Of a stretch of 64,000 bases of DNA, positions 229 to 56,762 are shown piece after piece (within the stretch, counting starts at the first letter, position 1; each line of letters begins with the position of its first letter). Made by a program: the position numbers and the translations under genes. This DNA comes from Crambe crambe (taxonomy: Eukaryota > Porifera > Demospongiae > Poecilosclerida > Crambeidae), in assembly GCA_963924555.1 (NCBI GenBank), contig OZ004597.1, forward strand, positions 744,001 to 808,000, given 5' to 3'. The notes beneath the pieces were generated by a model. That model did not search any database. It saw only the letters and a program-made list of their open reading frames with translations, and was not told the origin of the DNA.

Positions 229-14817
<14,589 letters not shown>

Positions 14818-14884: not shown

Positions 14885-17484
14885 TTAAAATCCAGCTAGT
14901 TTTGTCTTATTGAGAGTTGGGCCTTTTGAGTTGGTTTTAATGTTCAGTCGTATAGCAGCTGCTCCTTCTTTTCCTCCAGACTCCACCACAAGTTGAACCT
15001 TGCCATTTGGGGTAAGTGTTCCTTGTTCGAATGCATAGGCCAGTTGCGTTACCACAACTCTCTCCACCTATAGTGATAAATGTACAGAAACTCGCCCAAT
15101 CCTAGTCTTGTGAACACCTGGCTTGCAAGACTAACCCAATCCCTCATTCATAAAGAAAGATATCACTACATGGCTAAACCTTTCCTTCACCCCAAGTATT
15201 TGAGAAATAAGATCCCAACTTACTTCATGTTTTATGGATCGAGCTCCATACTTCACATTGTAGCCATCAGCTAGCACATCTAGAGCTTCTCTCTCCCATG
15301 TGAGGTCAATTGAGTGTCTTTCCATAGCCTAGCTAAGTGTGTAGTCATGTGCAGGTCATGTGATAGTCACATGAGGAACATACCCTTTCTTTCCATATCT
15401 TCAACTGCTTCTCTACCAACAGATTCAGTTCAGAACGTGAAAATGGCAAAAAGTAGAGCATTTCATTGATCCTGCCCAGAAATTCATCTCTCTTGAAGTG
15501 ACGCTGCATGTAATAGTCACATTATCAAGTATAAGTCAGGAAACTTATTGTACCTTCAAAATTGGTTCTACAACATTCTCTTTAAAATCTCGAGAAATTT
15601 CAATGTGATCTGGAGAAAAATCACATGCAGACATTAATTTTAGAGCCAAATTTTGCATAGGAAATCACCTTCTTCACTGTGGTGGTATTTCTCTGCAACT
15701 AGCTGTGCTTGTCGTCTCAGTTTCAGACCATGAGCTGCAATCTCGTCACTGGCTAGGTTGGAAGTCATCACAAAGAGAGCATCCTTGCACACGATGGTCT
15801 TCCCCTGTCCATCTGTCAGACGCCCCTCATCAAAGAGCTGCAGCATGACGGTCAGGACATCAGGATGAGCTTTCTCCACCTCATCAAACAACACCACAGC
15901 ATTGGGACATTTTGAGAGCTGGGAAGTCAGCTGACCTCCTTGGTCATGACCAATATATCCAGGAGGTGATCCGATAAGCTTAGCCACCTTGTGTATATGC
16001 ACAGTGAACCATGTCAGTGGGAATTTTAACCCACAAAAATTCCCCACTACCTCATGCTTTTCTTGATATTCTGACATGTCCAATCTGATGAAAGCCTGGA
16101 AATGATTTGTTGGTGGGGAACACGATTATAATTATGCCCATTTAGCGATACACACCTCTTTTTTGTTTTTGTGGAGATATTTGGCAATCTGCTTGGCCAG
16201 TTCAGTTTTACCTGCAAATGCAAATGGATGCTAAGAATACCATCTTTTTATCTAAATCTTTACCAATTCCAGATGAGCCTAGAAACAAGAGGACCAGAGG
16301 ATGATCGTCATCAGCCCAACCCATCTCCCTCCTTCGGATGGCAGCAGCTGCAGCAGTGATAGGACCTTCCTGTCCAACAATATGCTCCTTCAGACGATCT
16401 TCCAAAGGGAAGCGTCGTCTTTCTTCTAGTTCTTCTCTCCGCTTCTTCTCCTCATACTGTGTAAGCCAATTGAAATCTATACCCTTGGATATTAATTGAT
16501 CAGAAGATACCTTTCTGGTATATTCTTCCAGAAGCAGCTTGATATTATCATTTGTGCAGTAATCTATGGGGATATGGCCTCTATTATTTTCCAGAGTTGG
16601 ATCAGCACCATTGTCGAGGAGGAGCTTGGTTATCTCCTTGTTGTCCAGTAAGATGGCATAGTGCAATGGAGTAAAGCCAGAGTAGCTCATATAGTGGTTG
16701 ATATGTGAACAAAACTCTGAATCTCTTAATTCAGCAACTGGAAATACAGGTTAAAAATGAAAACAAAAAAAAAACAAAAAAGGAAGGAAAAGAAAAAACA
16801 CACTCCCCGACCGGGAATCGAACCCGGGTCTTCCGGGTGACAGCCGGAGATACTGACCACTATACTATCGAGGACTGGACGCTGGAAGTCTCAGTAAATC
16901 ATATCAAGTACATAAAACGAACCTTTCCTACTGCTAACCATCTCTTGTGATGCAATCCTGATAGCTGAAGAGAATTCATCTTTAGCATTTACATCTGCAC
17001 CTTTCTTTATCAACAGTCTAATTATATCTGAGTGCCCATTTATTACTGCTGTATGCAAAGCATTCCAACCAAGAGGGTGTCTACAATTAACATCAACTCC
17101 ATTCTTTAGCAACTGATTCAATACTTTGACATTATTATCCTTGGCTGCCCTAAGAAACTGCTTTTCCTCATCTATATTAAAAGTGCACATAAAAAGTGAT
17201 CAAAATGTACTAGCTATGTGGAACTCACTTCTGTTTTGGATACTGCATAATACTATTCCAGCACCTAAAAACTGTGAACAATTGACCCATTTGTTTGACT
17301 GCGAAGACCATGAAGAATGGCCATTATAATATGACTGCCTCCAAAGAGGTGCTTTGATAGGATGAAATGGTTTCATGGGAAGTGTACTCCTGCAGGCAAA
17401 ACTATTGGTGCCTGCCAAGTGCTTACAGATTCTAATATAGCAGTACTGAGTACTAACACGCCATAGCTTCCTCAGTAAACTCAT
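14885..17484 (-). CDS. CLPB: CLPB / SKD3 mitochondrial AAA+ disaggregase with ankyrin repeats
   Basis: This is an ATP-dependent protein disaggregase, which in animals works in the mitochondrial intermembrane space. The first exon (17229-17484) starts [11 protein letters not shown], a basic, Ser-rich presequence suited to mitochondrial import. Ankyrin repeats follow in exons at about 16923-17171 and 16511-16688, including the [20 protein letters not shown] and [13 protein letters not shown] segments. The AAA+ domain has Walker A GSSGIGKTELAK, split by an intron, and Walker [15 protein letters not shown]. The conserved [16 protein letters not shown] pore region and the C-terminal [13 protein letters not shown] segment are also present. 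About ten exons can be followed to the stop at 14885-14887. The order of ankyrin repeats before a single AAA+ module matches animal CLPB rather than bacterial ClpB. Its start is 76 bp from the divergent NUDCD2 start. Confidence 0.95.
16803..16874 (-). tRNA. tRNA-Asp (GUC), nested in a CLPB intron
   Basis: On the minus strand the 72-nt sequence folds as a full cloverleaf. The acceptor stem TCCTCGA/TCGGGGA has one G-T pair, the anticodon stem is TCCGG/CCGGA around loop CTGTCAC (anticodon GTC), and the T stem is CCGGG/CCCGG around TTCGATT. The internal promoter boxes are intact: A box around TAGTATAGTGG, B box GGTTCGATTCC. A run of six T lies a few bases after the 3' end on this strand, as expected for a Pol III terminator. 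It sits between ankyrin exons of CLPB on the same strand. Confidence 0.96.
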
Positions 17485-40622: not shown

Positions 40623-43600
40623 CTAATTCTTTGGTGCTAGTGGGCGTACTACAGTAGCTGAAGTTTTCTTCATACATTTAGCAGAATCTGCTCCATTTTC
40701 CTCTTCCAAGCGTGAAATGGTCCGTTTACAGCGAGCTATTTCTGTTTTCAATTTTGCAATTTCCTGAAAGTGACCGCAAAGCATTAAAAGCTGGAAAGCA
40801 ACTACCACACACTCCTACATACCTGTTTTAAACTAGCATTATCATCTTTCAATTTCTTGACGTGTTGAATCTTTTGTTTCTGATTTTGATGTCCCAATAG
40901 TCTGGTGTACTGGTCGCTAAGTCTTTGGACCTCTGATTGTGCCATTGATGTCTGATTGCGAAGTAGAAAGTTGAGGTCTTCAAGTCCATCAATCTGATCA
41001 CGAAATGGTCGATAGCGCTCTTCAATCTCTTCATAGGCTCTTGTCAGCTTCTTGTTCTCTTGCTTCAAACTAGAATGTGCAACAAGGGATTATATATACA
41101 GCAAAAGAATGTTGTGTCTGTGAATAGAAAGACTGTGTCCTGAACTGGTGGCAGAGATGACTACATAATCCCTTAACCCCACCTCTCATTTTCCTTCTCC
41201 AATTCTTCTATCTTTGCAAGTAGATCGGAACGCATTTTGGAGTAAGTACCTATCTCTTTTTTCCTGGAAGAATACACAGCACAGATGAGTTGCCAGACCC
41301 CACTTTTAACAAACGAGTACAATTCTTACTGTTCATCACTTGTCATCTCCATGGCCTGTAACCGAGTCCTAAGAACACTCTCACGTTCCTGACTCACCAC
41401 TTTCTGATTCACTACAAAATTAAGGAAATGAAAAATACACCTTTTCTTTCCTTTAATATATCTTACTTAGTTCTTCCTCGAAGGCCAGACACTTATTAGT
41501 GAGAGACTCCAAGGCTTCCTGGTGCTCTGCTTGGAAACGATCTAGTTCATGTTGGATGTCGAGATTTTCTCTTGATTGACTAATCTCTCGTTCAAGTTCT
41601 GCTATCTGCTCCAATTGCTGGCTAGCTTTAGCTTTAAGCTTGTTCTTTGCTTCCCTTTCAGCAGTGAGCAAATCTTGTGAGGACTTCAGATTATCAGCAG
41701 AAATTTGAAGTTCTTCCTTCACTTTTGATATGACATGTACTTGCTCTTTCATCTTGGACTCCATTTCATCTCTAGCTGCCTTATGAATCACAATCTCTTC
41801 CCGACTTTGTTTCACTTCTTCCTTTACATTCTTCACTTCTGCTTTCAAAGTGCAGACCAACTCCAGCTGCTGAGTCAGTTTACTCTGGAGCTCATCTTTG
41901 ACTTTTTGTCCATTTTTGAGCTCTTGTTGGATATGCTGAGCAGTGGTAGCTGAACTTTCCAAATCTCTCTCCAATCTAGCAATGTACTCAGTTTTTTCAG
42001 TAAGACCAATAGAGAGTTTTTGCTTTGCCTCCATCTCACATGCAAGCTGTTCTTCAATGTGCCTAGTCTTCTCAGCTGAGCATTCAACATTCTTCTTCAG
42101 CTCCGTTATCTGTTCCAGTTGAGACGAGATTTTGGTCTGGAACTCTTGCCTAGCCCGTTTCTCGGCCTCATACTCAACCTCCACACTCCGAAGTTTGTCA
42201 GTAGATGCCCTCACTTCCTCTTCTAGCTCAGTAGTTTTCAAACTTAATCTACTCTGCAAATCTTTGCCGGATTCTTGTTCAGCAAGCAATTTCATTTGCA
42301 CTGCTTGGAGTGAGCTCTCAAGTTGAGCCACTTGGTCAGAATTTCTTGCACTTGATAACTGAATTTCCTCCATTGCTTTCCTTTGCTCTTTTTTAAGCTG
42401 TTTAGCCGATTCTTCCAGCTGCTTTTGTAGCTCTTCAACTTCCTTGCTTTTGCTTTCCAGCTTCTTTCCAGACTGTTCCAACTGAGTTTGGAGCAAAGCT
42501 GTCTTCTTTATATCGATCTCATTCTCACTCTATATGGGTAAATCATGAAAGCCCCTTAGAATTAACATGCTACTCTCTATACACAGATATACGAAGTCAA
42601 CACGTTACAGGACCTCTCTATTGAGGAAGTGGATGTAGGTCTCTTTATTGCATACCTTAGCTTGGAGTATTTTCTTGCTACGGGTTAAATCCAGGTTCTC
42701 CTTGAGCAGGCTGGCCACTTGAGCCTGGAGAGTTGACTTGTCCTTGGTAGCCATCTGTACAGAAAGAAAAACATAATCCACATGCTGGTTGCACATGGTT
42801 AATGCACCTAATAATGCTGATCATAAAACTGATCTACACTTGCTCCCACACAAAGAATGACAATTCTTGTGTAGGAGAAAGGCATAAGTAGTCTGTGATG
42901 ATGGTAGATTAATAAATCATTAATAATAATTTGTTTGATGTAGCACACACTATGTACAGGCAGCAATCCTATTATGTAACAAGGACAAGATCCATACATG
43001 AACTCTGGTGTAGCACACATGCCAAATGCCTTAATTGGAAGTTTTTGGTGTTGATAAACAATACAGACTATATTTAGCACAGGTGTCTTACTTGAAACTT
43101 GCCCTCGAGCTTTGTGACTTCATTCTTGCTTGCTGTGAGCTGCTTGTACAATTCATTTCTCTCTGCTAGAAGCTTCTTTACCTAAACACACACATAGGAG
43201 AGACATGTTAGCAGCCATTATGAAACAATGCCTCATTCTCCAGCTAAAACATAATTGGGACAAGGTATTTTGTCCTTTGTAGAGAGGTTGTCCTCTCCTT
43301 TGAGGTGGAAAATGCATCACCACTGTTTAAGGAAAGCATGCAGTGTCCTCTATTCGTTATTGTGCTCTTTGTTCAGTGCCTTCCCTGTTCAACAACAACA
43401 CACCCATAGAAACACACTTCCTTCCAGTAAGAACTCACCTCTTTTTCAAGCTCTGCTTCTCTTCCAAAATCAGCAGGACTTTTCTTAGGAACCTTCGCTT
43501 GACCATTTCGAGACTCCTTGCTGATGGACTCTTTCTTGAAGGATTTGTCGTTTTTTGACAGCTGCAATTAACAGTTTTTATTAAAACCGATGTTCCGTGA

Positions 43601-43956
43601 CAAAGTTTTGTATTGTGCTCTCATCAGCTGAGCAATAAAGAATCACTTACTGAAAGCGTGGTGTCATCTGCAAGTGGATAGCCCCCATCTAAAGTCACAA
43701 ATAGGTTATTTAGCTGGCTGGCTACAGCATATTGCCTGGTATTACCTGGTGTCTTTCCATCCCTGAATCTCTCAGACTTATCAAATCTAGTAGCTCCAGC
43801 GTTAGAGATTTCTGTCCATTTCACATGGCTAAGGAGAGGTGGGGGGCCCTCAGGTTCTATTATTATTATATTAGTAAGCCACCTAGCTAAAATGGTGAGT
43901 ACAGCCATAAAACGAGGCCTACCTTTGTCTTTGAATCTTTCTGCCTTACTGAACAT
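40623..43956 (-). CDS. HMMR: HMMR / RHAMM spindle-pole coiled-coil protein
   Basis: HMMR is a microtubule-associated spindle-pole protein that, in vertebrates, works with TPX2 and dynein in spindle assembly and orientation. The N-terminus MFSKAERFKDK leads into a TRFDKSERFRDG segment like human SFQKSQRF. Long coiled coils follow, mainly one exon at about 41453-42530. The diagnostic C-terminal basic-zipper region is well conserved: YTRLLGHQNQKQKIQHV followed by KKLKDDNASLKQEIAKLK, against human YAKLLGHQNLKQKIKHV. An EERYRPFRDQIDGLE segment corresponds to the human KTKPFQLQLDAFE stretch. The stop is at 40623-40625. The ATG at 43954-43956 is 261 bp from the divergent NuMA ATG. Confidence 0.88.
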
Positions 43957-44217
43957 CAGCTGTTAGCTAAGAGTTGACGCTTAGTGAGGAGAGAAGAAGA
44001 TCTGATATTTCTGGGTGTACTGGAACCGGAGATACACAGATATACTTGCGGATATGCCTACAGCGACAGCAGATTTCCTCAAGCACAAGCCAGCCAGGTG
44101 CATGTTGTGAAAAAATCCCGCGAAAATGCCATTTAAAACCGCCACACCTCTACTGCGCATGTGCAAATTCAAAATAGCCAGGCGGTCATTTTAGCATAGA
44201 TTGTCTATATTTTAGCT
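43957..44217. promoter_or_regulatory. Bidirectional HMMR/NuMA promoter region
   Basis: These 261 bp separate the divergent HMMR and NuMA start codons. They contain a perfect E2F-type site TCCCGCGAAAA at 44116-44126, a TTTAAA motif five bases later (44132-44137) that could be a CHR-like cell-cycle element, and an NRF1-like TGCGCATGTGCA at 44154-44165. E2F and CHR elements drive S/G2/M expression of mitotic genes in other animals, so cell-cycle control of both genes is a reasonable inference. Confidence 0.65.
44116..44126. promoter_or_regulatory. E2F/DP site TCCCGCGAAAA
   Basis: On the minus strand this reads TTTTCGCGGGA, a full match to the E2F consensus TTTSSCGC with the extended palindromic core. 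It is about 92 bp upstream of the NuMA ATG and 160 bp upstream of the HMMR ATG. Confidence 0.7.
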
Positions 44218-47200
44218 ATGGAACCTTCTGGAGGATCAATAGCTAGGTTAGAATCGCTTATGAAGTGGGTAAGGGAGTAGATATGTCACTGTGATGATGC
44301 CTGCCTTATGTATGCTCATTTACAGGTCAATACTTTCGATGGAATTGAGTGCAAGTCCTTCAACGATTTTACTTCAGGAGAGGTGCTACTCAAATGTCTT
44401 CAAACAATGTAACACCCTGCTCTGGGTTCTAGTTAGCTATTCACTGATCTTTTATGGTCCACAGTATGCCTGATGTTATGGCAAATAACACTGATGATCC
44501 CTGGGGGGAGCTATTTGCCATTTTTGAAGGTTTGAAGCAGTTACCCCTCACTAGAATGGTTTAAAATAGTCCTTGTTTGCTTATTAAGATTTTTGTGGCT
44601 GTACACTGGAAAAAGCTGTCTCAGCAGAAAAAATCATTTCTGGGAGCCAGGAGCACATTTCAAGGGTAAAGGCACTATAAGTTATGAGGACTAGGCTATA
44701 CCTACTGATATGTTTATCATAGGTGATTGTGCTGCTGTTGGCTCTGGCTGTGCAGAGCAAGAACAACGACAGGATCATATCTGCCATTACCAGCCTGGAT
44801 TACGGGGCACAGAGGGACATCATGTTCTTCATAGAATCCACACTTGCCAAAGTGAAGAGCCATGCCATTGTAGCAGGCACTTTTACTTCAGGTATGTAGA
44901 TACAAAGAATTGTGATCTTTTTCATTGAGAGATGGCTCAAATAAATTTGTTTTGTAGGTGTAGGTGAGCCTCTTCCTCACCTGGAGACTGAAACTACACC
45001 TATCCAGTGCACACCTCTTTCACCCTCCAGTCCTACGAATAACAGAGAACTGGATATGACTCCCTTAGCCTCCAAGGTCACCGATGAGACATTTATCCTA
45101 CCTACTCCCCGAAAACCTAACAGGAACTGTCATTCAAATTTTTATAATGGCCTGGATTCTTCCGCTGGTGCTAAACTCTTGATGTCCCCAGCCATCATTG
45201 GCAGGACTATCAGGAAGTCACATATCTTTACAAAACCACCCACAGTTAAGTTTAAGGTAAGGCATCATACAGAAATGAGTTGAGAGTTAAGGGTCACAGA
45301 GGTCAAAGTTTAATCATCTGTTGACCTAAAAAGGATAGTACATCTTTTTAGGATATAGAGTCTGAGGGTGACAAGGAAGAGATTTCCCGTCTGAAGCACA
45401 GTATACGAGTGTTGGAAGGAACTCTCCAAGTGGAGAAGAAGCTAGCCCAGGAGTACTATGGCGAGCTTTGTGGCAAGATACAGGAGTGCGAGAGTTTGAA
45501 GAAAGACTACTATCAGCTGGAGAGAAAGCTGGACTGCCTTCAGCAGATGGACGACCTTCAAGATGAACTGGCACATGCTTCCACCAGTCTGGCTGCTAAA
45601 GAGAAATCTCTGCAGTGCCTGCAGAAGAAGGTGGAAACTCTGGAAGGCTCCAAAGAGAGAGCTGTGGAATTGGAAATGAAATTGAAAGAGTGTGAATCAA
45701 CCATTTCTTTGTGTGAAGAACAGAGTCAGGTCAGTAGCAAAATTCCCATGCCTTTCCCCTCTCTCGCCCTGCCCATCCCCTTCCCCCCTCTCGCCCTAAC
45801 CCATCCCCTTCCTCCCTCTTGTCTTGCCCGTCCCCTTCCCCGGCCCCCTCTCGCCCTAGCCCATCCCCTTTTCTCTGGAATGATTAGCCCAATCTTATTT
45901 GCAGAGTGTGAAGCAGTTAGAGAGCTTGCTTATGGAGAAGATGAGTGCATTGAAGCGTTCAGAGCTGCAACTTAATAAACTCACAATTAGCATGGAGATG
46001 AAGTCATCACAGATAGAAAGTCTACTGCAGGAAAACAGAGAAGTATGTACCGTCTTTATTATTAGCCATATCCCTCCTGTGAGGAAATGCTTCCCTCTCC
46101 CTCCTCCCCGGTCCCTTGTAATTATTCTAGCATAAAAGAGAGTTGAATGAATCCAAAGGAAAGTGCAAACTTCTTGAAGATACCATAAATCACCTGCAAA
46201 TGAAGCTGGACAGCAAAGCAGGTATCTTGATCTGCTCCATGCAGCTTGACGTGGTCATTTATTTCATCTGTTTACTGTAGATTCTGAGGTCATAATGATG
46301 CAAGAGAAGCAAGGTCTTGTGTTAGATGTCGAAAAACTTCAGGTAATGATAATATAACAGAATTGTATAGAGAAACCACGGTGAATTGATCATTAGGAAT
46401 CTCTTGAGGGCATCAAGCAGGAAGTTTCTTCTCTGAGAGTGCGAGAGAAAGAGAGCAGCTCCTATCTCACTGCTTTCGAGCAGGAAAAGAAGGAATTACA
46501 GGAGGAACTCATTGCCAAAATCGCTGAATTATCCTCTAAAGATTTCCGAATCCAGTCCTTGGAAGGCAGCAAGACAGACTTAGAAAATGAAATAATGCAG
46601 CTTCAGTCAAGCTTGCATGCTCTCAGACAAGACTTGGCCATAAAAGAAACTGAGATCCAAAATGTAGCTCTTTCCAGAGATATTCAAATCAGGTCCCAAG
46701 TGAACACCAAGAAAGATCTCGAGGCCCAAGTGGAAGAATTGCAGGCTTTTTCCAAGACTTTGGAGGACTGCCTTGCAGCTAAAGATGTCGAAATCCAACA
46801 AAGACTCTCTTCTAAGGATGATCAAATCAAGTGCCTAGAAAGTGCCAGGGACGAATTGGAGAACCAAGTAGCAGAATTGAAATCAAGCATGGTGTTGATG
46901 GAATCTAAACTATCTACCAAAGAGGAGGAGATTCAAAATGAAATTGCTCGAATAGGATTGATTGAGAGTGCTGGCAAGAAGCTGGAGGCTCACAATGTGC
47001 AGCTCCAGCACACCATCAGCTCACTGGAGCAGTCTCTTTCCACAAAGGAAGTGGAAGCCGCATCTAGGGAGAGTCGGATCAGTTCTTTAGAGAGTACCAA
47101 TGCAGAGCAACAAGAGAAAGTGGTGGATCTTCAGTCCCGCCTCGAGATGCTGGAACAAGACCTGGCTGCCAAAACTGCCAAGCTTGCTGCCAATAGTGAG

Positions 47201-48580
47201 GATCTCTCGACCCAGAAAGAAAAGCTAGAAGAAGAAATGGAGTCACTCCAGAGCCAGTATTCAACAGCTACTGCCAAGATTTGTGCACTTGAGTCCGAGA
47301 TGGTATCTAAGGCAAAGTCATTCACTGCTCTAATGGAAGAGTACGCCAAAATCCAGACCAACATGTCCCTCGCTGAAGAAGAGGTATCTGACTGTCGGGC
47401 TTCTCTTGAGTCAGCAAATTTCCTTAATTCTTCTCTTATGACTGAGAAATCTCACCTTGAGAGACGATATGCAGAGCTCCAACTCAACATGAAGGTGCAA
47501 ATGGATGTCAACGAAGCAAATAAAACTACCATCTTGGGGCTGAAGAGTGAGTTGGATCACAGTGAGAGCCTCGTGCAGGACTTGAAGGCCCTTAACATAG
47601 GTCTCAAAGGTGAACAGGATCAGATTGACAAACTCACCAGAGATAATCACATGCTCATCTCTGAGAAGAACAAAATCATGGAGAAATTCAGTATCCTATC
47701 GGACAAAGAGAGAAAAATTGCTTCTTCCAATCGACAATTCGAAGACGAGCTCATCAGAGAGCAGGCAAAATGCTTGAAGCTGAATCGCTATCTGTCAGCT
47801 CTCAAGGCTGAGCTTGCTGCATCTTCTACTCACACATTTGATGATTCTTCCCTACCAGTGTCGTGTGGGGAATGTGACAACAAATCACCTTCCCCTCTAC
47901 CCAGTCCAGAGCTGGGTAGCGTAGCAGCACTGAAATTGGAAGTGGAAGCTGATGAGAAGGACAGAGTGAAGGAGCTAAAGCGCAGAAATAAGCAAGCCTT
48001 GCCCCATCTCAAGTCTTCATATCCCATCGAAATGCAGATGCGACCAGAAACACCAACGACCTCAAATGAGAAGTTGAAGAAGATTGATAGATCATCCAAC
48101 AGTTTTGTTCCAGCTACAGCCAATCAATTTCAGGAGCCAGTCTGCTATAACACCAGGGCAAGAAGTGCTCAAGAACCTCCTTATTCCCGGAGACTCAGTG
48201 CTCCCCCGACACCTCAGACCCCCACGGATCTGAATTACAAACACAAGGCTTCACTTATGCGCCAGTCCATGTGTCCCTCCCTCAACCTCCGTGAATTTCT
48301 GGATGCTCCAGAAACTCGTGTCTCACTTCGAGAAGAGCAACCCAATCAAATGCTAAGTTCAACTGCATTCGAGGTGACATTCTCACCACCTAAGGCCAAA
48401 GGGTCAGTTCCCAAGAGGCTCCAGGAAAACAAATTTCGGCGGACCTTCAAGGAAGGGTCTGCTGCTGGTGGAACGCGGAGGGAGACACTGAGCAAACCCA
48501 AGAAAGTGGTGGCAACTTCCAGCAAGTCTCGAGGTGGTGTCACTACTGGAAGAAAGGGCATCCTCAAATCCAATAATTAA
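44218..48580 (+). CDS. NUMA1: NuMA (nuclear mitotic apparatus protein) homologue
   Basis: NuMA links dynein to spindle poles and, through LGN/Pins, to the cell cortex. The N-terminus (MEPSGGSIARLESLMKWVNT, then the EKIISGSQEHISRVIVLLLA helix) fits the NuMA hook-type CH-like domain (LLSWVNSL; AQKVLEGSELELAKMTMLLL). A long coiled coil follows, mostly in one exon at about 46397-48580. The C-terminus has RVKELKRRNKQALPHLKSSY (47962-48021), closely matching the human LGN-binding peptide RIAELQQRNRVCPPHLKTCY, and then PIE. It ends with a basic region (FRRTFKEG, GRKGILKSNN). I estimate about 1100 residues, roughly half of human NuMA (about 2100), with the loss in the coiled coil. Stop 48578-48580. 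It is convergent with the monooxygenase fusion gene. Confidence 0.85.
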
Positions 48581-48726: not shown

Positions 48727-51681
48727 CTACGGAATAGACAGGACAACTTTTCCTCGTGTCTGACCTGTTTCGACGTGCTTGTGAGCATCAATAACCTCGT
48801 CCAATGAATACACAGCATCAATCAGGGGTCGAACTGCTCCAGATTCCACCAAACCACACACTTGGCCAAGAGCAGAAGCATTGACCTCTGTATTGGAGTA
48901 GTAAAAACTCCTGCCTCCAAGGAAACGATTGATGAAGACTTTGTACCGATACAACCACGAGAAGGCAATTTCTCCAAAGAGCCCACCAAGTGAGTGGACC
49001 AGCTTTTCACGAGGAGAGACCACACTAATGTAAGTAGCTCCCTGATACAACTTGAGAATGGATAGAGATTGACGCTCAGATTTGCACCCAACCGTGTCTA
49101 AGACGACATCATAGCCACTTAGGACAGTGGAGAAGTCACCAGTTTTGTCATCCACGACTTTATCCGCCCCCAAATGGTGAGCCAGAGCTGTGTTCTCTGC
49201 AGTGCAGGTAGTGGTGACATAAGCTCCCCACGCCTTCAGTATCTGTACGGCAAATGAACCAACTCCCCCCGTCCCTTGATGAACGAGAATCTTCTTGCCA
49301 TGGGCATTGTAAGGACCGAGGCCGGCATGGGTGACAAGAGCAGTCCAAGCAGTCATGGCTACCCAAGGGATGGAAGCTGCTTCTTTGTGGTCGATAGAGC
49401 TCGGTTTGAAAGCCACATGCGCTTCGTTCACAGCTACTAACTGAGCATGTGTCCCCTGGCGAGAGGGAGGAACAGCTGCAAAGACAAGATCCCCTGGAAG
49501 ATACTTCGATACATTGTCTCCCACGGCGACTACTTCTCCTGAGCAGTCTCTTCCTAAAATAAGAGGGAAAAGATGTCCAGCAGAGATCTTCAAGAAGTTC
49601 TGGTTAGTGATACCACTACAACCTTGCCTCATCTGCAGATCTAGCTCATTTACGGAAGCAGCATGGACTCGAATAAGCACATCATTCGGCCCAAATTTTC
49701 CAACGTGCTTTGGTTCAATCCTCAGCACACTATCAGCACTTCCGTACTTGTTGATAACGGCAGCCTGATGTCTTGAAGTTGACTCGATGTTCTGCTTGGG
49801 AGGAACAACTTTCACAGCTCTGAGGAGTGCAAAGACACCGAAACCAATCATTCCAGAGGTCAATGGTGACAAACTGGTGTAGTTGAATACCAGACAAGAA
49901 ATGCTGACTCTTACAAGCAGATCTTTAATAAAGCTTTCTACAGGTCGTGGAGGTGAGGTATATGTAGAAATAGGAGGAGGCAGACGAGGAGGAGGTGTGT
50001 GACCTGTGATGGTTGAGACGATCTTGCTGGATTCAGCAACACTTGGTTGATAGTCAGACCTCCAAGCTACCACTCCATCTGGTCGGATCACGAAATACTT
50101 CTGATTGTAGACTTCAACGAGCTCCGGAAGAGGTGGGTAAGTGTAAGTACTGAATGGGACCTTTCCTTTCATAAGTGCCTCCTTCAAGTCTCCCAGGTCG
50201 CTCTCCACCCCTCCAACGATCAGAATGATAAACTGCTTTCCAAATAGATCAATAATGGTCGGACATTCGGGCAGAACAACGTGAGGAGCACGGCAGCCAG
50301 GAAGGGAAGCAGGAGTGAACCCATATGATTGATTACAATGGAGTCGAATTGAACCATCTTCATTGTACTGGTGCATCACAATGCCAGAGTTGGAGTACTG
50401 GAAGCCAAGGATTTTGTCAATGCCCTCAGTGAACTGCCGAGGGAGCTGGCGACTTATAAAACACCCCAAAATCCATCTGGCGATGGGGGATCTCGTTATA
50501 TTCTGGCGTATCTTCATAAAAATATCAAATCCAACTATATTTTGTCCCAAGCTCAAGGCAAATCTTCGGGTGGAGTCATCAAGAGGCCTGCGTTCCATTT
50601 CATATGAATCCAGGAGATACTTACCACCATAACCCTTTACCATTGCTTCTAACTTCCAAGCAAGGTCTGCCACATCACTAAGGCCGGTATTCAAACCCAG
50701 TCCTCCAGCAGGCAACCATTGGTGAGCACTGTCACCGGCTAAAAAGCACCGTCCTTCACGAAATTTTGTGGTCATCAAGGCATGCATATTGTACGCAGAC
50801 ACTGCTGTGACATCAAAAGGAATGTCAGAACATCCAATTGTATTCTCGACACACTTCCGTGGATTTTGAACGTGCCATTCAACCTTTTCATCAGATGTTG
50901 ATGGTGTTAGGAATATGTGAATCACGTAGTCACCCTTAATATTCAACATTATTAATAAGCAGCTGATATTCGGGTTCAGGATAAAGTTAAACCCAGCGGT
51001 CTTAGCCTCCTTCATGTACTCAAAGAGTTTAGGTGAAGAGAATCTGATGCTGCAAGCCCTGGCAAGAACGAATTTCCCATACATGTGCAAATTTAACTCT
51101 TTTCGCACGAAACTTGAGCCACCATCACAGCCAACCAGATAATGGCCTTTAAAGGTTTTTTCTCTTCCATCCTTATCCACGCCTTTTATAATAACACCCT
51201 CATCATCCTGGTTGATGGTGGTGACTTGACAACCCCAGGACATCTTGGTCACCTTTGACGTATCTTCGATATGCTTACGAATGACAGCTTCACTAGTGAA
51301 TTGAGGGCACATCATAGGGATGGACAGAGATGCTCCATGTTGGAATAATGGATATTCCTTGACTTCTCCATTGGCCATTTCACCCCAGGAAGCAAACTGA
51401 TTCTTGTACATCACTTTTCCTTTATAAGCTGCAGTGGTAAAGCATATTTCAATTGGCATATCGGGAGGGTATGATCCATCCTGGATTTTTTTTTCAAGTC
51501 CCATCCTTCGAAAGTGCTCCATTGATCGGGCAGAAAGACTAATGGCCTTTGGCGAGTTGGAGGTGGTGGGTTTGCTTTCAACAAGAATTGTGCTGATCCC
51601 ACGATAGGAGAGCTCAGCAGCCATTGCTAGCCCAACTGGACCTCCTCCTACAATCAATACATCAGCTTCTTCACAAGACAT
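48727..51681 (-). CDS. Fusion of FAD aromatic-type monooxygenase and RTN4IP1-like zinc-free reductase, single exon
   Basis: One uninterrupted 984-aa frame joins two enzymes. Residues about 1-560 are a PheA/TfdB/MhpA-type flavin monooxygenase. They show the dinucleotide fold DVLIVGGGPVGLAMAAEL, the GCDGGSS motif, the FAD-binding RCFLAGDSAHQWLPAGGLGL, and a thioredoxin-like C-terminal part ending YFVIRPDGVVAWR. A Pro-rich linker and a hydrophobic segment (GMIGFGVFALLRAV) follow at about 590-630. Residues about 640-984 are a medium-chain reductase close to RTN4IP1/OPA10: LIRVHAASVNELDLQMR, FPLILGRDCSGEVV, VHQGTGGVGSFAVQILKAWGA, LDTVGC, and TRGKVVLSIP at the end. The reductase half lacks the usual catalytic zinc ligands, as in the RTN4IP1 group. 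Substrate unknown. Its ATG (51679-51681) is 292 bp from the divergent MRPL22 ATG. Confidence 0.88.
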   Translation of the reverse strand: MSCEEADVLIVGGGPVGLAMAAELSYRGISTILVESKPTTSNSPKAISLSARSMEHFRRMGLEKKIQDGSYPPDMPIEICFTTAAYKGKVMYKNQFASWGEMANGEVKEYPLFQHGASLSIPMMCPQFTSEAVIRKHIEDTSKVTKMSWGCQVTTINQDDEGVIIKGVDKDGREKTFKGHYLVGCDGGSSFVRKELNLHMYGKFVLARACSIRFSSPKLFEYMKEAKTAGFNFILNPNISCLLIMLNIKGDYVIHIFLTPSTSDEKVEWHVQNPRKCVENTIGCSDIPFDVTAVSAYNMHALMTTKFREGRCFLAGDSAHQWLPAGGLGLNTGLSDVADLAWKLEAMVKGYGGKYLLDSYEMERRPLDDSTRRFALSLGQNIVGFDIFMKIRQNITRSPIARWILGCFISRQLPRQFTEGIDKILGFQYSNSGIVMHQYNEDGSIRLHCNQSYGFTPASLPGCRAPHVVLPECPTIIDLFGKQFIILIVGGVESDLGDLKEALMKGKVPFSTYTYPPLPELVEVYNQKYFVIRPDGVVAWRSDYQPSVAESSKIVSTITGHTPPPRLPPPISTYTSPPRPVESFIKDLLVRVSISCLVFNYTSLSPLTSGMIGFGVFALLRAVKVVPPKQNIESTSRHQAAVINKYGSADSVLRIEPKHVGKFGPNDVLIRVHAASVNELDLQMRQGCSGITNQNFLKISAGHLFPLILGRDCSGEVVAVGDNVSKYLPGDLVFAAVPPSRQGTHAQLVAVNEAHVAFKPSSIDHKEAASIPWVAMTAWTALVTHAGLGPYNAHGKKILVHQGTGGVGSFAVQILKAWGAYVTTTCTAENTALAHHLGADKVVDDKTGDFSTVLSGYDVVLDTVGCKSERQSLSILKLYQGATYISVVSPREKLVHSLGGLFGEIAFSWLYRYKVFINRFLGGRSFYYSNTEVNASALGQVCGLVESGAVRPLIDAVYSLDEVIDAHKHVETGQTRGKVVLSIP

Positions 51682-51973
51682 AGCTCAGATAGATGTGGAA
51701 CTGAAGATACCCTATAAATTTATGAGACAGAAAATGATTTTAAATCACAAATCACTCTGTAGTGCGTACCTTAAGAATGAGAGAGGCGAGGCAGACCTGT
51801 AGAGTCTGTGATCGAAATAGTGTAGTCTCTCAATTCTTTCCTTTTTCTTGCGAGACTAGAAATGGTGCTTGTTGTATAAAGCTTGCTCACATAATAGTGG
51901 GTGGGTCCGGTAACCACGTGCCATCATCTACAGATTAAAACTTTGACCCGGTGGTCAATCCAATAGTCCAGTC

Positions 51974-53448: not shown

Positions 53449-53625
53449 GATCGGAATTATCTCTGGTCTCACTCGGAAAATAGCAGAACCTATAAACCAC
53501 GTTGCGTTCTGCCCACGAAATTTGGCGGCATTTTTTCCCCTGGTACGGTACGTACGGTACGTACTGGTATTTTCATGTCGTGGTCACATGACTTAATCGG
53601 CCCAACCCCCAATAAATTCCAAATA

Positions 53626-54824
53626 ATGAGCACCATGTGAGTGAGGACAGAGAAAAAATGTAAGGCACAAGAGATCGTCATAACTCCATGTGTTATTTAT
53701 ACAATCTACATACAGGGCTGACTACTGGAAGTCTAATCCTAGAAAGTTTTGTGAAGTATGCAAGTGTTGGTTTGCAGATAACAGGGCTGTAAGTAGCAAG
53801 TACCTATAATGCATTGTTTTGATCTGTAATATCATGCAGAGTATAGAGTTCCATGAAGGTGGACAGAGACATCAAGCAAATGTCAGAAAGAAGCTCCAGG
53901 AAGCTAGAAGTCGCTCGGCTGCAAATGAAAAGGAGAAGGTGAACCTTGCTAAAGTGTTGAATACAATAGAGAATGCTGCTTTCAGTGCCTACCAGCAAGA
54001 CTTGGCTGGAGGGCCAGCAAAGAAAGCCAAACCTAACGTTGCAGACATCAATCAGGCACAGCAAACACACCGGGAAGAACAGGCTGCTGAGCAGGCAAAA
54101 CTGGAGAGAGAGATGGAGAAGAAGATGATTGAGGTACATGCACAACAGAAAATACAAGAAATACAAGCAAAGGCTGCCCTTGAAGCCAGAGCTGCTTTGT
54201 ACGCTTGGCAGCAGTGCTATTCTCCAGAAGGTTACGTTTATTACTACAATAATGTAACAGGAGGTAAATATAATAATTATAAATTTTATAACAAATTGAA
54301 TCACACTTTTACCAATGTTCTCAGTGTCCCAATGGGAGGTACCAAAAGAGTTCAGTCAGTTCACACCATCCATTCAACCCCCGGCACAAACAGCACCTTC
54401 ACAGGTCACCATATCACCCTCAACAACTCCTTCAATAGTACCTCCTGCATCATCATCACCCTCTTCCAAATCTCTCACCTCTGTCACATCTTTGGAGCCT
54501 GTGAAAAGACCCCCAGACAATGCCGAACCAGACAAGTGTGATTACTACCCTCCTCCCAAGAGGAGGACACCATACGGACAGTGGACTACAGTGACCATTA
54601 TAGAGAGAGATAATGTGAAAGAAGATAAAGAAAGAGAGGAGGAGGAGGAGGAGGAAGAAGAGACGGGGGTGCAATTTGAGGAAAAGACATTAACTGGTGG
54701 GTTGGGTGAAGAGGAGGAAAATGGGAGTGGTGAGGTTAAGGGTGAATTTAAAGGATTCACGTTTAAAAAACGGACAAAATTCAAAGAAAGACCTCAGGCT
54801 AGACAGAGAACAAGTGATATATAA
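53626..54824 (+). CDS. WBP4: WBP4 / FBP21 spliceosomal WW-domain protein
   Basis: WBP4 is a spliceosome-associated protein that binds proline-rich splicing factors. The first exon gives MSTM, and splicing to CAG|GCTGACTAC yields MADYWKSNPRKFCEVCKCWF, the matrin-type U1C-like zinc finger (CxxC, FHEGGQRH). A coiled-coil region with Ala/Gln/Glu follows. One WW domain is split by an intron after YVYYYNNVTG, continuing VSQWEVPKEF. Downstream come a Ser/Pro/Thr-rich linker, a YGQWTTV segment matching human NPYGEWQEI, an acidic poly-Glu run, and the conserved FEEKTLTG and FKKRTKFKERPQARQR end. Human WBP4 has two WW domains; I see only one here. The stop is at 54822-54824. Confidence 0.93.
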
Positions 54825-54906: not shown

Positions 54907-56503
<1,597 letters not shown>

Positions 56504-56560
56504 GGTGAACTCTTGCAGGGAATAGCCTCTGGCACCGCCTTTTTTTCTCACTTGAACGAT

Positions 56561-56590
56561 CACGTGGAGCCGGAGGCACAGAAGCACGTG
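56561..56590. promoter_or_regulatory. Two CACGTG E-boxes between RNF121 and NAA15
   Basis: CACGTG occurs at 56561-56566 and again at 56585-56590, about 24 bp apart, in the 259-bp spacer between the two divergent start codons. Such palindromic E-boxes bind MYC/MAX, USF or MITF/TFE-type bHLH-ZIP factors. Confidence 0.4.
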
Positions 56591-56762
56591 TAATAATAAA
56601 AAGAAGAAACAGCTGAAGAAAGATATTTTCCTGAGCTAACTCCTTCCTAGCACTCCTTGGAGCACTGAGCTACGTAGATGCAGAAAATCCAGCATATGAC
56701 TGAGAGAATTTTATCATAAACTTGTTGAAGAAATTTCACCACAAGTTAGCTGACTCCTTGAG

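Follow-up and report, generated by a model that had tools for sequence, protein, structure and literature searches.

The 261 nt between the divergently oriented genes for HMMR and the NuMA orthologue are best read, with a probability of roughly 70%, as a bidirectional promoter that is ordinary for this compact animal genome and carries a weak E2F/CHR-like cluster. Transcription would start both ways inside the spacer, driven mainly by elements of the NRF1/KLF type; a degree of proliferation-dependent control by E2F/MuvB may come on top for one gene or for both. That two spindle genes are paired here most likely follows from the packing of genes in this region, not from selection for co-regulation. 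The analysed genome has 143 Mb in 119 contigs; the window, i.e. the whole 64-kb stretch of DNA analysed here, lies on contig C20.

The HMMR and NuMA genes and their shared spacer

The locus comprises the following features.

40802..43956, minus strand: HMMR gene (ATG 43954-43956; first exon about 43923-43956; left end approximate)
40802-41089, minus strand: frame of the HMMR C-terminal domain (Pfam HMMR_C)
43957..44217, no strand assigned: HMMR/NuMA spacer, putative shared (bidirectional) promoter between the two start codons; CpG o/e 0.70
44218..48580, plus strand: NuMA gene (N-terminal hook domain, long coiled coil, LGN-binding-like motif; stop at 48580)
about 47951-48031, plus strand: LGN-binding-like motif of NuMA, by likeness to the human LGN-binding peptide

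An earlier note on this DNA had described HMMR and NuMA as diverging from a spacer of 261 bp. The layout was borne out, with the HMMR ATG at 43954-43956 (minus) and the NuMA ATG at 44218 (plus), and so were the names. HMMR was identified by its Pfam domains PF15908 HMMR_C (E 3e-23) and PF15905 HMMR_N (E 1.5e-7), both above the cut-off; a profile search found one HMMR_C match genome-wide. For NuMA, the first exons (joined by eye) matched PF21670 HOOK_N_NuMA with E 5.4e-8, passing the curated cut-off, and in a PDB search gave a weak match to Hook3 structures (E 8.5e-5). The C-terminal stretch resembled the LGN-binding peptide of human NuMA (12 of 26 residues identical, E 6e-10, in one single comparison); the query is what we take to be that peptide. 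No NuMA chain came up when the tail was searched against the PDB, where the coiled coil and the tail returned only weak unrelated matches or none. Genome-wide, PF21670 had no matches, though the joined exons of the window match it; since the domain is spread over exons, the genome-wide result gives no copy number for NuMA.

Two similar F-x-K-x-E-R-F motifs were seen by eye in the first two HMMR exons (43624-43962, minus strand) and perhaps reflect a small exon duplication. Relatives of HMMR were also sought in bacterial and archaeal contigs (117 pattern matches) and in viral contigs (24); none was confirmed, a result uninformative on animals.

Two identified protein genes whose starts lie 261 bp apart have the geometry of a bidirectional promoter (divergent protein genes, starts <1 kb apart). 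The raised CpG content of such promoters is found as well: the spacer has CpG o/e 0.70 against a window mean of 0.35, and 107 of 3187 sliding 261-bp windows along the 64 kb reach 0.70 or more. A CACC/KLF-like box is also present, and the genome encodes an NRF1 DNA-binding domain (PF10491, E 1.2e-91). The CpG contrast and the encoded NRF1 domain argue for an ordinary promoter.

So does the comparison with Amphimedon queenslandica, where almost one-third of genes appear to be driven by bidirectional promoters, Nrf-1 and KLF motifs are enriched, and genes lie a median of 0.59 kb apart (Sci Rep 2016, PMC4773876). Common to both are divergent genes <1 kb apart, a compact genome, CpG kept near starts, Nrf-1/KLF motifs and CACGTG, here in two of the three divergent pairs that neighbour HMMR/NuMA. 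The HMMR/NuMA spacer is a putative promoter, read from the DNA sequence; a point of difference is that E2F has no occurrence in the main text of PMC4773876. The Amphimedon figures may not be transferable to the analysed genome.

Motifs in the spacer and their expected frequency

Four motifs were located in the spacer.

44116..44126, plus strand: E2F-like site TCCCGCGAAAA (11-mer), which departs from TTSSCGC by one base on both strands
44132..44137, no strand assigned: CHR-like TTTAAA, 5 nt past the 11-mer and 7 nt past CCGCGAA
44154..44165, no strand assigned: NRF1-like TGCGCATGTGCA, one mismatch from YGCGCAYGCGCR, which we take to be the NRF1 consensus
44168..44173, minus strand: CHR-like TTTGAA (TTCAAA on plus)

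The distances of the E2F-like site to the start codons are 159 bp on the HMMR side and 91 bp on the NuMA side, and the site matches only WTTSSCSS, a looser E2F consensus. The 11-mer and TTTAAA stand where the earlier note had placed them, and the NRF1-like site that it mentions is present; its 'perfect E2F site' did not survive comparison with TTSSCGC, the E2F motif of Table 1 in PMC5716687. The site reads ATCCCGC on one strand and TTCGCGG on the other, and with a mismatch on both it is not perfect.

The CHR hexamer TTYRAA, a motif described in the accessible text of PMC5716687 and PMC4974476, occurs twice, as TTTAAA at 44132 and TTCAAA at 44168; TTTAAA is given as an optimal CHR in CCNB1 (PMC4974476). 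Hexamers of the TTTAAA/TTTGAA type near a CG-rich E2F-like site are shared with the CDE/CHR or CHR promoters that drive mammalian G2/M genes, as far as these are described in PMC5716687, PMC4974476 and PMC4705690. The arrangement differs from the mammalian one. Mammalian CDE/CHR has a spacing of 4 nt (PMC5716687), whereas here the gap to TTTAAA is 5 nt for the 11-mer, 7 nt for CCGCGAA and 10 nt for TCCCGC; 1 nt separates TTTAAA from the sole TGGCGG (minus strand), and the spacer contains no GGGCGG.

Chance expectations came from two Markov models, each used to simulate 20,000 stretches of 261 bp. Exact TTSSCGC occurred in 2-11% of simulated stretches, WTTSSCSS in 8-16% and TTYRAA in 31-35% (two or more in 5-6%). 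The least expected elements of the spacer include the NRF1-like site, a 12-mer with a simulated frequency of 1e-4 or less. The exact 11-mer TCCCGCGAAAA is equally rare (1e-4 or less), as a word chosen after being seen. WTTSSCSS within 20 nt of TTYRAA was found in 0.4-0.8% of simulated stretches, a pairing likewise chosen after the fact. This proximity is mildly unusual and, as an uncommon feature, counts against an ordinary promoter. Among the 3187 sliding windows, 116 contain both WTTSSCSS and TTYRAA; if one mismatch is allowed in the E2F site, 583 have it together with TTYRAA, and 10 of these also have an NRF1-like site.

Genome-wide, the 11-mer has 25 copies, compared with 4 for the reversed pattern, 5 for a scrambled control and 15 for the reverse of the latter. 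We do not regard this as enrichment. A BLAST comparison of the 25 surroundings with the fetched loci placed 17 copies in repeats, where DNA like theirs extends across the site in one or more of the other loci; a further copy (L015) looks repeat-like by eye; the 7 or 8 remaining copies, the window's included, are within the controls (4, 5 and 15), so outside repeats the 11-mer is no commoner than they are. The surroundings of the HMMR/NuMA copy had no match among the other fetched loci. At least two repeat families, delimited by eye, contain TCCCGCGAAAA, among the loci L011, L016, L017, L022, L027, L028 and L030 (around position 5000) and L012, L014, L020, L021, L026 and L029. Most copies of one TCCCGCGAAAA-bearing family also have a GCATGCGCATG stretch; repeats therefore spread E2F-like and NRF1-like words in the genome. 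A sigma-70 scan was discarded as not meaningful for animal DNA.

The positions of the motifs bear on a reading in which two independent promoters abut and the motifs serve one gene each, e.g. E2F/CHR acting on HMMR and the NRF1 site on NuMA. We consider this somewhat unlikely. There would be room for two core promoters in 261 bp, and the NRF1-like and second CHR-like sites (44154 onward) are nearer to NuMA; the E2F-like site, at the distances given above, is also closer to the NuMA start.

Replication-gene yardstick and possible cell-cycle control

Sites of the same genome provided a measure for the E2F-like match. We took PCNA and four MCM loci recognized by the MCM N-terminal domain (MCM4, MCM5, MCM6 and MCM7; numbers assigned by eye), 3.1-3.2 kb each. 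Every one of the five has exactly one TTSSCGC, 36 to 118 nt before the ATG (frames read by eye). Four of these sites are TTTCCCGCCA or its complement, and the PCNA site is TTTGCCGCCA; the HMMR/NuMA site reads AATCCCGCGAAA and, unlike them, has no exact TTSSCGC. It shares with them the CCGC core, A/T flanks and a short distance to the ATG. Scored with a matrix of 14 columns built on five sites only, it reaches 6.55 bits, below all five replication sites (7.9-18.3, each scored with itself excluded from the matrix). Of 261-bp stretches drawn at random from the window, about 15% reach 6.55 bits.

The pattern TTTSSCGCSAAA has 200 strand matches genome-wide versus 10 for its reverse, a count in which palindromes are scored on both strands and some repeat copies are included. 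The palindrome TTTCGCGCGAAA stands at many genomic places among the matches listed. Two mitotic loci of 3.2 kb, NDC80 (L044) and BUB1 (L045), contained no TTSSCGC; their first exons and promoters perhaps fall outside these loci.

The score bears directly on the proposal of a DREAM/E2F-controlled mitotic pair, in which E2F/DP would bind 44116-44126 and MuvB (LIN54) TTTAAA and/or TTTGAA, with both genes silent in quiescence and rising at G2/M. The genome encodes candidate factors, E2F/DP (PF02319, 5 matches) and tesmin/LIN54-type CXC proteins (PF03638, 6 matches), and the presence of TTTAAA, an optimal CHR in CCNB1, within 20 nt of the E2F-like site is in keeping with such control. Human HMMR is listed in a table of p53-p21-DREAM-CDE/CHR targets (PMC4705690), a point that, together with the membership of both proteins in one pathway, also weighs against an ordinary promoter; NUMA1 is not mentioned in that paper's main text, which speaks against the pair being controlled jointly. 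The departure from TTSSCGC on both strands, the gap of 5 to 10 nt where CDE/CHR has 4, a matrix score that about one in seven random stretches equals and a hexamer expected in about one-third of simulated spacers point the same way. Taken together, this makes the DREAM/E2F pair unlikely. Our search for literature on E2F/DREAM cell-cycle genes in sponges, judged by titles and the starts of abstracts, returned nothing on sponge promoters.

The functional link that the earlier note had drawn between the two proteins holds; in mammals, HMMR modulates cortical NuMA-dynein (PMC5681225, accessible text). The note's further claim, a co-regulated mitotic pair, fared less well: cell-cycle control of HMMR and/or NuMA is plausible, but the E2F-like site is weak and the divergent layout is locally usual. 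A stronger version, a cell-cycle operon-like unit in which one spacer, through its two CHR hexamers and a divergent E2F-like site, would let DREAM/MMB switch both genes together, with the pairing selected and common to related sponges, seems to us distinctly improbable.

Divergent neighbours and the age of the pair

Further genes and spacers of the window are relevant to the origin of the layout.

15640-16750, minus strand: CLPB gene (best PDB match 'Caseinolytic peptidase B protein homolog', E 2.3e-51)
51682..51973, no strand assigned: divergent spacer of 292 bp between the FAD/ADH gene (minus) and MRPL22 (plus)
53449..53634, no strand assigned: divergent spacer of 186 bp between SUMO (minus) and WBP4 (plus), whose E2F-like match at 53521 outscores that of HMMR/NuMA
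54907-56503, minus strand: RNF121-like gene, named by sequence likeness
56504..56762, no strand assigned: divergent spacer of 259 bp between RNF121 (minus) and NAA15 (plus)

Moving right from NuMA, strand alternates from gene to gene. Three more divergent pairs, with spacers of 292, 186 and 259 bp, are found within 13 kb, and HMMR/NuMA is one of four consecutive pairs. Such a run, with spacers of 186-292 bp in about 13 kb, argues for an ordinary promoter; as the head-to-head layout is common to the next three pairs, whose functions are unrelated, it carries little signal of co-regulation.

MRPL22 and NAA15 were identified by PDB matches (E 2.4e-12 and 1.4e-42, respectively). Pfam matches support the FAD and ADH domains as well as the SUMO-like fold. 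The WBP4-like gene gave a sub-threshold WW match in Pfam and the RNF121-like gene no Pfam match; these two were named by likeness to what we take to be WBP4 and RNF121. The WBP4-like start codon is apparently split by an intron between AT and G (53634-53716, splice sites by eye). The FAD/ADH gene is a single frame of 985 residues (48727-51684, minus strand) that joins an FAD-binding domain to a zinc-type alcohol dehydrogenase, an unusual-looking fusion.

The SUMO/WBP4 spacer, for which we know of no mitotic link, has CpG o/e 1.23 and an E2F-like site of 9.63 bits at 53521, a score reached by 2.4% of 185-bp stretches. The HMMR/NuMA match is thus weaker than those of the five replication genes and of this neighbour, in favour of an ordinary promoter. 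Against that reading, none of the three neighbouring spacers has an NRF1-core match or the combination of an E2F-like site with TTYRAA: one has TTTAAA with a poor E2F score and two have no TTYRAA.

The earlier note had suggested that the pair is ancient, a claim for which we found no support. Human HMMR lies on chromosome 5, at 5q34. Human NUMA1 appears in a list of 11q13.4 genes that includes RNF121, IL18BP, LRTOMT, FOLR3, FOLR1, FOLR2, INPPL1, PHOX2A and CLPB and, as far as given in that study of oesophageal cancer, not HMMR (PMC3561653). This listing of NUMA1 with RNF121 and CLPB is a further argument for an ordinary promoter. Our literature searches found nothing on an HMMR/NUMA1 bidirectional promoter or a head-to-head HMMR/NuMA order, nor on a bidirectional arrangement of HMMR and NUDCD2; PMC8576264 reports a Pins/LGN candidate in Amphimedon, its accessible text containing nothing on NuMA gene order. 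An ancient metazoan HMMR-NuMA pair held together by selection for co-expression, the case for which is the pathway shared by the two proteins in mammals (PMC5681225), is therefore very improbable indeed.

The CLPB, NuMA and RNF121-like genes all lie within 41 kb of the window and possibly form a conserved microsynteny block; searches for literature on NUMA1-RNF121 microsynteny found none. Given the human locations, any old linkage here is more likely to be that of NuMA with RNF121 and CLPB than with HMMR, which we offer as a lead only.

A striking gene pair arises easily where most neighbours are divergent. For E2F sites, the TTTCCCGCCA-type sites at MCM and PCNA genes provide a yardstick from within the genome, and for gene order the window points to a possibly older link, that of NuMA with RNF121 and CLPB.
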